64,000 nucleotides of DNA from Shimia sp. R10_1. Lineage in GTDB: Bacteria; Pseudomonadota; Alphaproteobacteria; Rhodobacterales; Rhodobacteraceae. Below are positions 59,403-64,000 of the stretch, piece after piece. The stretch lies in the NCBI RefSeq assembly GCF_017744095.1, contig NZ_JAGHQX010000007.1, forward strand, positions 62,001 to 126,000, in the 5' to 3' direction. The translations under genes were made by a program, and so were the position numbers. The notes under the pieces are model-generated. The model did no database searches. It saw only the letters and a list, made by a program, of their open reading frames with translations, and was not told where the DNA came from. Positions within the stretch are counted from its first letter, which is position 1; each line of letters starts with the position of its first letter.

Positions 59403-61037
59403 ATGTACAAGCACCCCGGTGTTTATATTGAACACGTTCCCTCCAACACCTTGTCCATTGAAGCGGCCTCGACTTCGGTGACGGCTTTCATTGGGCATGT
59501 GAAGCGCGGCGTCGCGGTCACAGCAGGGGCAGGCGAGCCGATCTTCATTTCGTCACCTGCGCAATATGCGCAGATGTTTGGCCCGCTGGTGGGCGGCGCA
59601 GGCGGTATTCGCAACGCCGGTGATCAGGTGGATGCCTTTGGCCATGCCATTGCGCAGTACTTCGCAAATGGCGGGGCAAAGGCTTTTGTGGTGCCAGTGG
59701 CGCATACCACGGGTGCCCCCGCCTCAGCGACGGCGTCGCTTGTGATTGCCAATGGGTCTGGCCAGTCGGTTACGTTGACGTTGACGGCAACGTCGGATGG
59801 TGAGTGGGCCAATGACGTGATGTTTGACCTCTCCAAGAATGACACGGACGATTACACGCTGACACTTGGCACGCTCGATGCGGCCACGCGACAGGCTTAT
59901 GAAGATGCTGCGGATGATGCCGCCAAAGCTGCCGTGCTGGCAGATGCGGATTTTGATGTCGAGCTGGAGGTTTTTGCAGGGCTTGATATCGATCCTGACA
60001 GCGGACAGGCCGTGAAAGGCAGGGTTGATGGTCTTTCTCGCATCGTAACGGTGGCCTCGACACCTTTGGCGGCATCGGATCCTGCAGATCTGCAGACCGG
60101 TGTGCGCGCGCTGTCGGCCGGAGGGAGCGATGCCAATGCACCGGTTTTGACGCACTACAGCGCCGCATTGGAGCGGTTGAAAGACTATCGCAGCATTTCT
60201 ACCATCGTGCTGCCGGGTTTGAGTTGGGCCGACAATGTTCATCAGACCATTTATCAATCCGCAATTGCCCACGCGGAATTCATGCAGAACCGGATGGTTT
60301 TGGTGGATCCGAGCAACCTTGTGGGAGATCGGCTTGAGACCGCGCAGAAGGTGAAACAGGAAGGGTTCCCGACCTCCCCGTATTCCGCGCTTTACTACCC
60401 GCATTTGACGGTGGGCAATCCGTTTTATGATGCGGAAACCAATGCCAATGTGCCTGCGACCTTTGAGATTGGCCCATCGGCGATGGCGGCGGGGCTGTGG
60501 GGGCGCATAGATGGCACGCGTGGGGTCTGGAAAGCGCCAGCAGGGCTTGAGGCCACAGTGCGGGGCAGCTTTGGGCCAAATGTGAAAATTGGCAATGCCA
60601 TTCAGGACAATCTGAATGAATGGGGCGTGAACTGTATTCGCTCTATCATTGGCCCTAGTGTGGTCTGGGGCGGACGCACTTTGGCGACAAAGACCAAACC
60701 GCAATACCGCTACATCCCAGTGCGCCGCACCCAGAACATGATAGGCGAGAGCCTGTACAACGCGCTTCAGGCGGTTGTGTTTGAGCCCAATGACCACAAA
60801 CTGTGGGCAGGTCTGCGTGCCTCCGTTGGCAACTTCATGGATGGTCTGCACCGTGCGGGCGCATTTCAGGGTGAAAAAGCCTCTGATGCGTATTTCGTCA
60901 ATTGCGGCCTTGGGGCGACCATGACGCAGGGCGACATTGATGCGGGAATTGTGCGGGTTGTCGTCGGCTTTGCGCCGCTCAAACCCGCCGAATTCGTGGT
61001 TGTGCAAATTCAGCAAATCGTTGGTCAGACGGCCTGA
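59403..61037 (+). CDS. Phage tail sheath-like protein of a contractile injection system
   Basis: A 544-residue sheath protein with the typical N-terminal MYKHPGVYIEHVPSNT and a C-terminal conserved sheath domain (residues about 415-540, GVNCIRSIIGPSVVWGGRTL, NMIGESLYNALQ, RVVVGFAPLKPAEFVVVQI). The central part (about 100-270) is variable, as usual for sheath surface domains. Contraction of the sheath drives the inner tube through a target membrane. A GGGAGAC ribosome binding site precedes the ATG. Only one sheath gene is visible, while many eCIS carry two or three. Confidence 0.92.
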   Translation: MYKHPGVYIEHVPSNTLSIEAASTSVTAFIGHVKRGVAVTAGAGEPIFISSPAQYAQMFGPLVGGAGGIRNAGDQVDAFGHAIAQYFANGGAKAFVVPVAHTTGAPASATASLVIANGSGQSVTLTLTATSDGEWANDVMFDLSKNDTDDYTLTLGTLDAATRQAYEDAADDAAKAAVLADADFDVELEVFAGLDIDPDSGQAVKGRVDGLSRIVTVASTPLAASDPADLQTGVRALSAGGSDANAPVLTHYSAALERLKDYRSISTIVLPGLSWADNVHQTIYQSAIAHAEFMQNRMVLVDPSNLVGDRLETAQKVKQEGFPTSPYSALYYPHLTVGNPFYDAETNANVPATFEIGPSAMAAGLWGRIDGTRGVWKAPAGLEATVRGSFGPNVKIGNAIQDNLNEWGVNCIRSIIGPSVVWGGRTLATKTKPQYRYIPVRRTQNMIGESLYNALQAVVFEPNDHKLWAGLRASVGNFMDGLHRAGAFQGEKASDAYFVNCGLGATMTQGDIDAGIVRVVVGFAPLKPAEFVVVQIQQIVGQTA

Positions 61038-61082
61038 TAGGGGCCGCCTCATTCATTTTGGTATTTTGTTCAGGAGGCTTTT

Positions 61083-61595
61083 ATGGCTGCTCCAACTTTC
61101 CCCGTAAATGCGCATCGGTATGATCCGTATCGCACCTTTAAATTCCAAGTGGTTATTAATGGCCGCGTCGTGGCAGGCCTGTCCAAGATGGGCGCATTGA
61201 AAAAGACCACAGAGGTGGTCAACTGGCGTTCCGCCGGGGATCCCTCAAGTCAGCGCGCCATTCCGGGCGGCACAAAATTTGAAAACGTCACGCTCGAGCA
61301 TGGGCTGAGCCATGATCTGGTGTTTGAGGAATGGGCGAATTCCGTCAACAACGTCTCTGAGGGGGACGCGGGCATGTCGCTCGTGAACTTTCGCCGCGAT
61401 ATCGTCATCAATGTGCTCAATCTGCAAGGCACGCCGACCATGTCTTATCAGTTGCGGCGTGCGTGGGTGACTGAGTTCCAAGCCTTGCCGGAATTTGATG
61501 CCAACAACATGAACACGATCGGCATTCAATCCATCACGCTGGCACACGAAGGCTTTGTCAGAGACATCGCGGTTGTCGAACCCGCAGAGAGCTAA
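61083..61595 (+). CDS. Phage tail tube-like protein (T4 gp19 family)
   Basis: A 170-residue tube protein with the gp19/Pvc1-like N-terminus DPYRTFKFQVVINGRVV and the TTEVVNWRSAGDPSSQRAIP loop. Such proteins stack into the inner tube that carries effectors. It lies 45 bases after the sheath gene with an AGGAGG site; sheath-then-tube order is that of contractile systems. Confidence 0.92.
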   Translation: MAAPTFPVNAHRYDPYRTFKFQVVINGRVVAGLSKMGALKKTTEVVNWRSAGDPSSQRAIPGGTKFENVTLEHGLSHDLVFEEWANSVNNVSEGDAGMSLVNFRRDIVINVLNLQGTPTMSYQLRRAWVTEFQALPEFDANNMNTIGIQSITLAHEGFVRDIAVVEPAES

Positions 61596-61598
61596 GCC

Positions 61599-62387
61599 AT
61601 GCATCGCGCCGCGCAAACTCTGGCTGTCGCCTTTCCAAGTCACACACCCCGGTCGATGACGGGGGATGTGGAGTTGGGCGTTGCGGCGGCTTTGGCGTCT
61701 GGGCGGCGGCGCCCGGATGCTGTGACGGCGGTGCTGGTGCATGTGTTTTCTGAAATTGGCGGATTGGCAACAGAGATTGGCGACGTCTGGCGGCTTGCCT
61801 CCGGCAGTCGGGAGTGGCTATTGCAGCGCGCGGCAGCGCTGTTCTGGCACGATGCAGGGTGGTTTCAGGCGCGCTGCGCGCATTGCGATGCGGCCTATGA
61901 TTTGCCGCTGAAGTTGGCGTCTGCGCCACGCAAGCCAGCGGGGCGCCCATTTCCCACCGTGACCGTGCGCACGTCTCTTGGGGCACGCCAGTTTGAAGTG
62001 CCAAATGGGTTGCATGAGGCGGATCTGGCAAAAGACAGTCCGCATGCCCCGGAGCGCAGGTTGGTTGCCCTTTGCGGTCTTGGCAGGGACGCACAGGCGG
62101 ATGCTGACGGGTTTACGGAAGGGGACCTGCGCGTCATTGAGGACGCGCTGGATGCCGCCGCGCCTGACGTGGCTGATGAGGCATCCATCATTTGCCCAGC
62201 CTGCAAAACATCGACTGTAGCGCGCATTGACCCTCTGGATTTTGCCTTTCCGGATATGCAGGGGATCTTGCGGGACGTGCATGCGCTTGCCAGCCGCTAT
62301 CACTGGTCTGAAGACGCCATTCTTTCGCTGCCCAGCGCGCGCCGTCGTGCCTATGTGCGTCTGATTGGACAGGAGGCACGCAGATGA
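61599..62387 (+). CDS. Zinc-ribbon protein resembling the T4 gp51-like baseplate hub chaperone of injection systems
   Basis: A 262-residue protein with two CxxC pairs, CAHCDAAYDLPL near residue 90 and CPACKTSTVARIDPLDF near residue 207, that could together bind one zinc. The layout of variable N-terminus, first CxxC, an FTEGDLRVIEDAL segment, then CPxC and a C-terminal helical tail fits the gp51-like proteins found in extracellular contractile systems. It begins three bases after the tube stop and overlaps the next gene by ATGA, so it is part of the operon. Assignment is moderate. Confidence 0.65.
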   Translation: MHRAAQTLAVAFPSHTPRSMTGDVELGVAAALASGRRRPDAVTAVLVHVFSEIGGLATEIGDVWRLASGSREWLLQRAAALFWHDAGWFQARCAHCDAAYDLPLKLASAPRKPAGRPFPTVTVRTSLGARQFEVPNGLHEADLAKDSPHAPERRLVALCGLGRDAQADADGFTEGDLRVIEDALDAAAPDVADEASIICPACKTSTVARIDPLDFAFPDMQGILRDVHALASRYHWSEDAILSLPSARRRAYVRLIGQEARR

Positions 62388-63340
62388 GCCTGTTTGCCAA
62401 AGTGATTGCACGTGCCGCGGTGCCCGGCCAGCCCGTTCTGCCAACGGCGCAGCCCAAAGGCCTGTTGCGGCGCGACGCCTCTGTGCCTGAGGTTGCAGCC
62501 CCTTTGCAGCGCGTCGAGGGCGAAGAAGATGCCCTGGCGCCCTTGAGACGCATGGAAGAGGAAGAGACGGCGCAGAGCCTGCGTCGCACGGAGTTGGCAG
62601 AGGTAGACGCGCTGCCCTTGCGACGGTCTGAGTTGGAAGAGGAGGCCGAGGCGCAGCCTGTGCGGCGGGAGGAGCTGGAGCAGGAAGAGGTCGCCCAGAC
62701 GGTGAGACGCGCTGAAGAGGAAGGTGAAGAAGAGATGCAGGCGTTGCGGCGTGAGTTTGTTGAGGAGGAAGAGAGCGAGGCGCAGGCTTTGCGCAGAACC
62801 GAGGCCTCTGAGGCGGATATGGAAGAGGATGCTGCACAGCCATTGCGCCGGGCTGAGATGATGGAAGAAGAGGCTCAAACGCTTCGTCGAGAAGCCGAGC
62901 TGGCAGAAGAAGAGGAAGAGGTACTGACGCTCCGGCGCTCAGAACTGGCGCAGGAGGAACTGGGGCCTGTGCGGCGTGCAAGCGAGCAAGAGGCTGAAAG
63001 CGCGGAAGAAACGGCGCAGCTTTTGCGCGCGGAAGAGCCGGACTTCCCCGAAGAGCCAAGCCCAGCGCAGGCTTTACGGCGTTTAGATGGACCGTCTCCA
63101 GCAATAGAGGCTGGCGCAATGTCAAACGATGTGTCCGCACCCTTTGCGGAGCCTGACCCGTTACATGCGCTTGTGCCCGTGCCGCCGCCGCAAACTGTGT
63201 CTCAGTCAGACCGGCCGCGCGTGCAGATCGATCAGATTGATGTGATGATCCATGAACCCACGCCCAACACCCAGAGCAGCCCTGATTTGGGCGCACAACT
63301 GTCTCGGATGCTGTCCGGGCGGTATTTGCGGGGGCGGTAG
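62384..63340 (+). CDS. Arg/Glu-repeat protein of the injection locus
   Basis: A 318-residue protein dominated by about 14 imperfect units of 12-18 residues, each with [LV]RR followed by a run of Glu/Asp and Ala (for example LRRMEEEETAQS, LRRSELEEEAEAQP, VRRAEEEGEEEMQA), residues about 40-240. It starts LFAKVIARAAVPGQP and ends VQIDQIDVMIHEPTPN and SRMLSGRYLRGR. The C-terminal motif resembles that of small eCIS proteins encoded before the DUF4255 cap gene. The charged repeats recall the Glu/Gln-Arg repeats of eCIS-core (DUF4157) proteins, but no HExxH is seen. It may be a linker, cargo-loading or tape-measure-like protein. Confidence 0.7.
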   Translation: MSLFAKVIARAAVPGQPVLPTAQPKGLLRRDASVPEVAAPLQRVEGEEDALAPLRRMEEEETAQSLRRTELAEVDALPLRRSELEEEAEAQPVRREELEQEEVAQTVRRAEEEGEEEMQALRREFVEEEESEAQALRRTEASEADMEEDAAQPLRRAEMMEEEAQTLRREAELAEEEEEVLTLRRSELAQEELGPVRRASEQEAESAEETAQLLRAEEPDFPEEPSPAQALRRLDGPSPAIEAGAMSNDVSAPFAEPDPLHALVPVPPPQTVSQSDRPRVQIDQIDVMIHEPTPNTQSSPDLGAQLSRMLSGRYLRGR

Positions 63341-63343
63341 GAT

Positions 63344-64000
63344 ATGGCCACGCCGGAAAGCTCGCTCTCGGTTGCACTGCAGGAACTGGCGGAATTCATC
63401 GCCGGTCAGATGGCCGATGATGTGATTGTTTCGGTGGATGTGCCCAACCGTGTGAGCAAAGCGGCAGAGGACAGCGACAAACACCATCTGAATCTTTTCA
63501 CCTATCGGCTGGCCCCCTCCGGCATCCATGCAGATCAGTCAATGCAAGAGCCGTTTTTTGTCCGTGCACAAGTGCTTGTGACGGCTTTCCCGGCAGGCAA
63601 AGGCAACCCGCCCGCAGATGCGGATCTGCGCGTGCTGGGGCAGGCAATGCGGGTGCTGTCCTCGGTGCCGGTGTTGCCTGTGGTGCTGCCCGGGGCGTTG
63701 CCCGTTGATGCAGAACCGGAGGATTTTCGGGCAGCACAGACCACGCAGTATCGGCTGCAGGTGGTGTTCCAAGCCCCAACGATGGAAGAGTTGAACCACA
63801 TCTGGACCACACAAGGTGGCGAGCTGCCGTATCGATTGTCTGCGGCCTATGAGCTGGCGCTTATTCCGATAGAGCCGTTGGTGCATGCCGCGCCTCCGGA
63901 GCCTGTGCAGGCTGTTGAGCTGCTCTCAGGTGTGGGCACTCAGGCGGCGCCGTTTCAGATGTTTGTGTCGGCGGGGCGGCTGTTTTCCCATCTTGAGGTG
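63344..64000 (+). CDS. DUF4255 family protein (Pvc16/Afp16-like cap), 3'-truncated
   Basis: The frame starts at ATG 63344, four bases after the previous stop with a GGTAGG site overlapping it, and runs open to the window edge. The 219 visible residues contain the DUF4255 pattern: SLSVALQELAEFIAGQM near the start, HHLNLFTYRLAPSG, then a beta-rich segment LPVVLPGALPV and AYELALIPIEPL. Pvc16/Afp16-type proteins terminate the tail tube and sheath in extracellular contractile systems. The stop codon is outside the window. Confidence 0.82.
   Translation, partial: MATPESSLSVALQELAEFIAGQMADDVIVSVDVPNRVSKAAEDSDKHHLNLFTYRLAPSGIHADQSMQEPFFVRAQVLVTAFPAGKGNPPADADLRVLGQAMRVLSSVPVLPVVLPGALPVDAEPEDFRAAQTTQYRLQVVFQAPTMEELNHIWTTQGGELPYRLSAAYELALIPIEPLVHAAPPEPVQAVELLSGVGTQAAPFQMFVSAGRLFSHLEV

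Follow-up and report, generated by a model that had tools for sequence, protein, structure and literature searches.

The stretch of DNA analysed here, 64,000 nucleotides of the alphaproteobacterium Shimia sp. R10_1 (GCF_017744095.1, contig NZ_JAGHQX010000007.1, positions 62,001 to 126,000; hereafter the window), ends inside what is almost certainly a complete operon for an extracellular contractile injection system (eCIS). The operon comprises 18 genes on one strand, from a tail sheath gene to two genes for proteins with the eCIS_core domain (DUF4157), and spans window-equivalent positions 59403-83992, the genes beyond the end of the window lying on the same contig. In our genome set the window is G000:C37:62001-126000, from a 4.37-Mb genome of 39 contigs, and a window-equivalent position plus 62000 gives the position on C37.

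The sheath, a gp19-type tube, a spike, a gp25/J-type baseplate, a Pvc16-type (DUF4255) cap and an AAA+ ATPase are present together in this operon, and the two eCIS_core genes sit at its 3' end, where cargo with eCIS_core is a known pattern for eCIS-associated toxins (PMC8213781; this and the other papers given below by PMC number are cited from excerpts). The genes are as follows, with positions beyond 64000 window-equivalent and protein lengths in amino acids (aa).

59403..61037, plus strand: tail sheath, 544 aa (PF17482 at 1.2e-8 and PF04984 at 8.3e-8, above the curated cut-offs)
61083..61595, plus strand: inner tube, 170 aa (PF06841, gp19, at 1.6e-38, above the curated cut-off; TIGR02241 at 4.9e-34)
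61599..62387, plus strand: CxxC protein, 262 aa, two CxxC pairs (read from the sequence)
62384..63340, plus strand: acidic repeat linker, 318 aa, degenerate (E-rich..LRR) repeats, C-terminal end VQIDQIDVMIHEP
63344..64291, plus strand: Pvc16/Afp16-like cap, 315 aa (PF14065, Pvc16_N, at 1e-19, above the curated cut-off); the window stops at 64000, and the complete gene is G000:C37:125344-126291
64296-65678, plus strand: AAA+ ATPase (PF00004 at 1.3e-17)
65675-65905, plus strand: 76-aa protein
65895-66527, plus strand: CIS_tube protein (7.7e-8)
66530-66859, plus strand: 109-aa protein at the LysM position, without a Pfam match
66863-68032, plus strand: hub (PHROG match at 3.9e-4)
68032-68847, plus strand: VgrG/gp5-like spike (3.5e-18)
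68844-69239, plus strand: gp25 (6.4e-12)
69242-70435, plus strand: J-like baseplate protein, 397 aa (TIGR02243 at 6.5e-14, below cut-off)
70432-73458, plus strand: J-like baseplate protein, 1008 aa (TIGR02243 at 6e-19, below cut-off)
73455-75122, plus strand: 555-aa protein, possible Tail_P2_I-type adaptor (from family members)
75149-78682, plus strand: 1177-aa DUF6519-type protein (from family members)
78693-80003, plus strand: eCIS_core protein, 436 aa (eCIS_core at 3.7e-18)
80000-83992, plus strand: eCIS_core protein, 1330 aa (eCIS_core at 1.1e-23)

A sequence-only reading of the window had already named the first five genes, in this order and on this strand, as the left end of an eCIS rather than of a prophage, with overlaps or gaps of 3-45 bases (we measured 45, 3, -4 and 3). 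Its calls of sheath, tube and DUF4255 cap agree with Pfam families above their cut-offs, the repeat protein that it saw between the CxxC protein and the cap is present, and the locus holds, as it had noted, just one sheath gene. Its gp51-like zinc-ribbon protein was borne out in part: two CxxC pairs are visible, but gp51 is unconfirmed, the single PHROG match being weak (E 0.008) and to a family of unknown function. It had also expected cargo and tail fibres to the right of the window; two eCIS_core proteins are indeed found there, but the fibre is probably of the large DUF6519/eBAP5 type and not Pvc13-like.

The relations of the sheath point the same way. When a profile of 20 sheaths was compared with solved sheaths in the PDB, its best matches were 9ezm, 8bky and 8bl4 (1.6e-83 to 4.5e-75), which are titled merely phage tail sheath proteins and which we take to be sheaths of contractile injection systems (CIS). 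These were followed by All3325 of Anabaena (8e-58), Pvc2, the Algoriphagus sheath, Pvc3, Afp3, Afp2, Pvc4 and Afp4 (7.8e-27), whereas T4-like gp18 and the pyocin sheath matched at 7.6e-4 to 9.6e-3. In a quick tree of 76 sheaths (20 of the lineage described below and 56 others, with no type VI secretion sheath among them), the lineage sheaths form one 20-sequence clade (SH-aLRT 100) that contains none of the included phage sheaths and joins (95) a clade of 12 loci, 11 of which have three or more sheath open reading frames (ORFs); the phage sheaths are placed elsewhere in the tree, several of them on long branches. By sequence comparison the sheath is related to eCIS sheaths rather than to those of myophages or pyocins.

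The operon belongs to a lineage in which the machinery is constant. A scan of genome contigs gave 31 loci, of which 22 were compared (L027 and L037 are short, and seven, L042-L048, are distant), and the core gene order is identical in all 22, over 15 genes in 20 of them and over 12 genes in the two whose reading stopped at the second J-like gene. Locus halves were fetched separately and ordered by their contig positions, and 2-3 kb within the region of the second J-like gene is unread in the Sedimentitalea, F11138, Vin29 and Shimia relatives. The order of the five window genes, shared with 22 relatives, is far beyond chance. The inner tube is 170 aa long in every compared relative (72-89% identity over the best segment), and the CxxC protein, found in all of them, is 36-57% identical.

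Hosts include Kordiimonas, Sedimentitalea, Litoreibacter, Shimia, Mesobacterium, Ancylobacter, Woodsholea, Palleronia, Halomonas and Reinekea, as well as metagenome-assembled genomes (MAGs) labelled Nitrospirales and Zixibacteria. Because sheath relations cut across these hosts, with the sheath of the window pairing with Kordiimonas (support 90) and that of the Zixibacteria MAG grouping with Halomonas and Reinekea (90, both in the quick tree), the sequences point to spread of the lineage by horizontal transfer, although MAG labels call for the usual caution. Its distribution within the family is patchy: the CIS_tube protein (E<=1e-50) occurs in five of 394 genomes of the family, that of the window included, one of them at 55% identity. 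None of the 24 other genomes of the genus that were searched has a close sheath copy; one (G017) has another eCIS, with a sheath at 43%, and another (G006) a weak sheath match at 5e-4. An activator-like gene, presumably BTAD-like, lies upstream in five of 23 loci and is absent at that of the window, and no other neighbouring gene family was found to be common to at least five of the 23.

From these genes we infer how such a particle may be built and used. Sheath and inner tube would polymerise on a baseplate made of the hub, the VgrG-like spike, gp25, two J-like wedges and possibly the Tail_P2_I-type adaptor, and the Pvc16-like cap would close them. The lumen would be expected to hold two cargo proteins, the 1330-aa eCIS_core protein and an exchangeable one, here the 436-aa eCIS_core protein, which would probably be loaded via basic N-terminal leaders, assisted by the AAA+ ATPase; in the Photorhabdus virulence cassette (PVC), loading depends on an N-terminal signal and the ATPase Pvc15 (PMC11495950). 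On contact through the DUF6519/eBAP5-type protein, the probable fibre, the sheath would contract and drive tube, spike and cargo into a target cell.

The assignment of this fibre draws on the family more than on the copy in the operon. DUF6519, described in 2026 as eBAP5, is a baseplate anchor of tail fibres that stands beside Tail_P2_I adaptors (PMC12923769). It is matched by 20 of 21 members of the 1177-aa family at E<=0.1 (best 1.1e-10), and Tail_P2_I by five of 19 members of the 555-aa family at the same threshold (best 3.2e-4). The 1177-aa protein is 28-51% identical to its relatives in the alignment, and its predicted model (mean pLDDT 69, pTM 0.41) shows a helix of about 100 residues besides an N-terminal region of mixed structure and a small helical domain at the C-terminus. 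Foldseek returned no match to this model at E<=0.001; the top five entries are baseplate proteins of phage phi812 and of the Anabaena CIS (E 1.7e-3 to 0.11), and TssK entries stand at ranks 21 and 36. A PDB sequence search gave matches solely in the C-terminal coiled-coil region among the best 60 of 191. We conclude that the protein is probably fibre-type, without a recognised receptor-binding domain; a Pvc13-like fibre was not recognised in the locus.

Two other origins or modes for the locus deserve weighing. An R-type tailocin, or a prophage remnant or satellite with a contractile tail, would share the sheath, tube, spike, gp25 and J-like genes, all common to phage tails, and a sheath-like match is present in 258 of 50,697 phage records. 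However, none of these covers 80% of the sheath, and the best 25 of the 258 records show 22-34% identity over 38-59%; Pvc16, CIS_tube, the AAA+ ATPase, relatives with DUF6519 and the two eCIS_core proteins are eCIS markers; and the 10 flanking proteins searched against Pfam are catabolic or regulatory. No capsid, portal or terminase gene was seen among the ORFs read by eye from window 54 k to window-equivalent 98 k. Rejected on the sheath profile, the phage-record search, the quick tree and the flanking proteins, a phage or tailocin origin is in our judgement extremely improbable.

A second alternative is that the apparatus stays bound to or inside the cell, as in the Streptomyces CIS or the thylakoid-anchored tCIS, and is not released as a particle, and several observations do weigh against a released, cell-targeting eCIS. 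A lysis gene was not recognised in the locus, which leaves particle release unexplained, nor was a PAAR-type tip protein, for which no dedicated search was made. The copies of the 1177-aa and 555-aa proteins in the operon of the window match neither DUF6519 nor Tail_P2_I, respectively, unlike their relatives; no lectin, macroglobulin or pectin-lyase domain occurs in the 1177-aa family among the 25 of 49 Pfam families listed; and the putative fibre ends in a coiled coil, which may suit the intracellular mode that has been reported for Streptomyces. In Streptomyces davawensis, a DUF4157 effector with tape-measure likeness acts within the producer (PMC11126660). On the other side, recent work interprets DUF6519 proteins as anchors of fibres (PMC12923769); the neighbour of the sheath clade in the quick tree is an eCIS clade of mostly multi-sheath loci rather than the single included Streptomyces sheath (a long branch); and, outside the 1330-aa cargo, hydrophobic segments above 1.6 in five proteins of the operon reach just 1.87, against 2.32 in the cargo. 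We consider a cell-bound or intracellular system unlikely, and prefer the eCIS that acts on other cells.

The 1330-aa eCIS_core protein is the more constant of the two cargo candidates. In 21 loci it measures 1287-1355 aa (coefficient of variation, CV, 1.3%), with 35-61% identity over the whole alignment. Its last part appears more divergent in AlphaCo244, Palleronia and the uncultured Roseobacter, since BLAST similarity ends at residues 1103-1176 in those three loci. Hydrophobic segments, read by eye, lie near residue 650 in all 21 members and near residues 590-613 in 17. The C-terminal 593 residues of the copy in the operon of the window are 16-50% identical to the others, but every one of the 21 C-terminal parts keeps R, EG, DH, G, E, DH and Y, and the G that follows the second E is nearly invariant. 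An hhalign comparison shows the two E...DH stretches to be similar (probability 95.4%, E 1.9e-8, 40 columns), and this duplicated motif looks catalytic, putatively so from its conservation. The middle of the protein is common to plasmid proteins of Oscillatoria, Deinococcus, Streptomyces and others (31 of 72,556 plasmid records matched at E<=1e-20, none over more than 80% of the length). PDB sequence searches with the 555-aa protein, with the 1330-aa protein or its C-terminal part alone, and with the C-terminus of the 436-aa protein gave no credible match.

By analogy, the 1330-aa protein resembles a tape-measure-related effector, and its main role may even be structural, as a tape measure rather than a toxin. 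Its length is constant despite about 40% identity overall and the low identity of its C-terminal part, while variation is greater in the linker (CV 8.6%) and the 1177-aa protein (5.9%), and its hydrophobic segments are as in tape-measure-related effectors (PMC11126660). Equal constancy of length is seen in several further proteins of the operon (CV 0.7-0.8%), however, and the 1330-aa protein carries both an eCIS_core domain and the catalytic-looking motif. A mainly structural role is quite possible though less likely than not, and we continue to treat the protein as a putative effector.

The slot in front of the 1330-aa gene is, by contrast, variable: among the 20 relatives read, 17 hold one to three proteins there (20 in total) and three hold none. 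It is occupied by the 436-aa eCIS_core protein in the operon of the window. Eight of the 20 slot proteins were scanned against Pfam, and seven of the eight contain eCIS_core; further domains above cut-off are OmpA, TIG and transglutaminase (TGL), some proteins have none beyond eCIS_core, and reprolysin-, M91- and second TGL matches fall below cut-off. The leaders, taken as the first 25 residues, are Arg-rich, with a net charge of +4 to +12 and 17 of 20 at +9 or more; for the three of lower charge an upstream start codon had been taken. A 247-aa slot protein (L064:8410-9150) lacks eCIS_core and keeps the leader. Because such basic leaders agree with published eCIS cargo N-termini, which are hydrophilic and positively charged (PMC11297309), no new signal is claimed; the new detail is the strong likeness of leaders that the sequences suggest within this lineage.

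Between tube and cap lie two proteins that lack a Pfam match at E<=0.1, the CxxC protein, possibly an assembly factor, and the acidic repeat linker. An ORF of the same build, located by position between the CxxC protein and the cap, is present in all 22 relatives. Its N-terminal end is usually MS....R.......PKG; the acidic core, of 217-318 residues, has a net charge of -13 to -57 and is marked by (L/V/I/M/F)(R/H/A/Q/S)R steps, the median distance between which is 13 when gaps of 4 or less are excluded; and the C-terminal tail V.I(D/E)(Q/R).DV is found in 23 of 23, the own copy of the window included. The Palleronia and uncultured Roseobacter copies have few repeats, with three steps each. In two other eCIS loci, L158 (from a genome of the same family) and L084 (a viral contig), a low-complexity protein at the same place ends in an IGRI-type tail, and in L157 (from a genome of the same genus) one at this place lacks such a tail, all judged by eye. 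We take the linker, from its sequence and position, to be a lineage-specific version of an eCIS linker, whose possible roles are those of a cap adaptor, an assembly factor or a cargo-loading adaptor. No DNA tandem repeat was found in the linker gene of the window at score 30.

As a separate observation, the linker gene of Halomonas ventosae (L034:13457-13876) contains a 39-base tandem array of 10.7 copies with 94% matches, and linkers of three Halomonas species measure 279, 286 and 297 aa, differences that likely reflect copy-number change in a structural gene.

The LRR of the linker was also considered as a motif common to cargo leaders, and was set aside as weak. LRR-type motifs exceed shuffles in 18 slot leaders (48 observed vs 6.0) and in 21 leaders of the 1330-aa family (33 vs 6.7), but they do so in the non-cargo sheath (49 vs 13.1) and tube (39 vs 8.4) too, and basic leaders favour the motif. 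In the set of slot leaders, two rows without a leader were dropped and three rows (two Litoreibacter, one Palleronia) were actually the 1330-aa protein. Charges in two other eCIS loci (linkers -3.8 and -13.4 per 100 aa, leaders +4 and +5) neither support nor refute co-variation of linker and leader; a third linker has -1.7 per 100 aa. The full proposal, that an acidic linker gathers Arg-rich leaders as a multivalent loading adaptor, with an exchangeable slot independent of DUF4157 and a large DUF4157 protein as fixed tape measure-effector in a mobile lineage, would be a long shot.

Extension of the sequence to the right, which the sequence-only reading had proposed as a check, leads from the AAA+, CIS_tube, hub, spike, gp25, J-like, DUF6519-type and eCIS_core genes into an operon with a LacI-type regulator, a sugar-type ABC transporter and mannitol dehydrogenase. 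Upstream and diverging lie genes for an aldehyde dehydrogenase, an iron alcohol dehydrogenase and an AraC-type regulator, in keeping with the catabolic neighbourhood that it had described. ARAGORN found no tRNA around the locus, and an Rfam scan gave a single tRNA, at 26 kb of the window. A clean empty site was not found in comparison with genome G003, in which homology resumes at window-equivalent 84118, adjoining the sugar operon, and on the left is interrupted from about 47-48 k. For the right-hand LacI-type regulator, the closest relative (92%), G003:C1:43372-44403, is reported with one stop codon within the match.

Several further observations concern eCIS elsewhere. The other eCIS of the genus, on G017:C3 (L157, L182), encodes a 1431-aa DUF6519-family-like protein, a 424-aa protein and a 1217-aa protein that matches the slot-cargo profile; two different eCIS occur within one genus. 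Sheaths of L027-L039 and L041 (Halomonas, Nitrospirales, Ancylobacter and others; not L040) are longer than those of the branch of the window by about 100 or more residues, which form a variable mid-protein domain between the conserved N-terminal end and the strongly conserved C-terminal half. The sheaths of Streptomyces phages pSt2308 (PV588686.1, L167) and BRock (KX925554.1, L169) score 160 and 171 bits against the eCIS sheath profile, more than any of the five further phage sheaths retrieved, and in the quick tree they cluster with some sheaths from viral contigs. Among IMG/VR viral contigs, 116 stretches encode relatives of the sheath of the window, and 80 loci were kept (L077-L156), some sharing contigs. 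Some of these "viral" contigs are probably eCIS loci, since several of those scanned show three or more sheath ORFs.

The structures and biology of eCIS rest on few systems. The lineage described here is tight and alignable, a constant machine with a variable cargo slot in named host strains (of Litoreibacter, Sedimentitalea, Kordiimonas, Halomonas, Ancylobacter and Reinekea), and it offers a natural experiment on cargo addressing and on whether a DUF4157 protein sets tube length; the linker, without a Pfam family match, marks a gap in the eCIS parts list. Among the matches listed in a literature search on contractile injection systems in Rhodobacterales, Roseobacter, Halomonas and the named genera, the lineage is undescribed. 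It is not described in the excerpts of PMC8320451 and PMC9230969, nor noted in the excerpted text of the surveys PMC8213781, PMC12923769, PMC11297309 and PMC12210884, whose supplements may include it. The literature search surfaced no paper on an acidic repeat protein or a disordered cap or tube protein in contractile injection systems. Overall, this is a known kind of system with three testable details, namely the acidic linker, the length-fixed double-DH cargo and the leader-addressed slot.

With AlgoCIS, PVC and the antifeeding prophage (Afp), the operon shares a sheath, a gp19-type tube, a cap, an AAA+ ATPase, a spike, gp25 and wedges, and its gene order differs from that of PVC and Afp. 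It has one sheath gene, whereas PVC has Pvc2-4 and Afp has Afp2-4 by molecule names, and no Pvc13-like fibre was recognised in it. DUF4157 cargo is also found in AlgoCIS (PMC8894135). The 1330-aa protein is like Tme of S. davawensis, by description, in its DUF4157 domain, hydrophobic segments, putative C-terminal catalytic domain and very large ORF, but its gene is the last of the operon whereas that of Tme lies upstream of the baseplate genes, and its C-terminus has the E...DH duplicate where Tme has an EndA-like DRGH/H-N-N domain (PMC11126660). Most similar are the eCIS of the DUF6519 (eBAP5) type, which likewise have a J-like and gp25 baseplate, Pvc16, CIS_tube, AAA+ and eCIS_core cargo, and in which a Tail_P2_I-type adaptor is followed by the DUF6519 protein, as may be the case here (PMC12923769). 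In the excerpted account, however, eBAP3/5 loci are largely without Afp12 homologues, whereas two J-like genes matching TIGR02243 below its cut-off are present here; the published eBAP5 fibres carry macroglobulin, pectin-lyase or lectin domains, in contrast to the coiled-coil end seen here; and Actinobacteriota are stressed among the published loci, whereas those described here come mostly from Alphaproteobacteria and Halomonas (PMC12923769).

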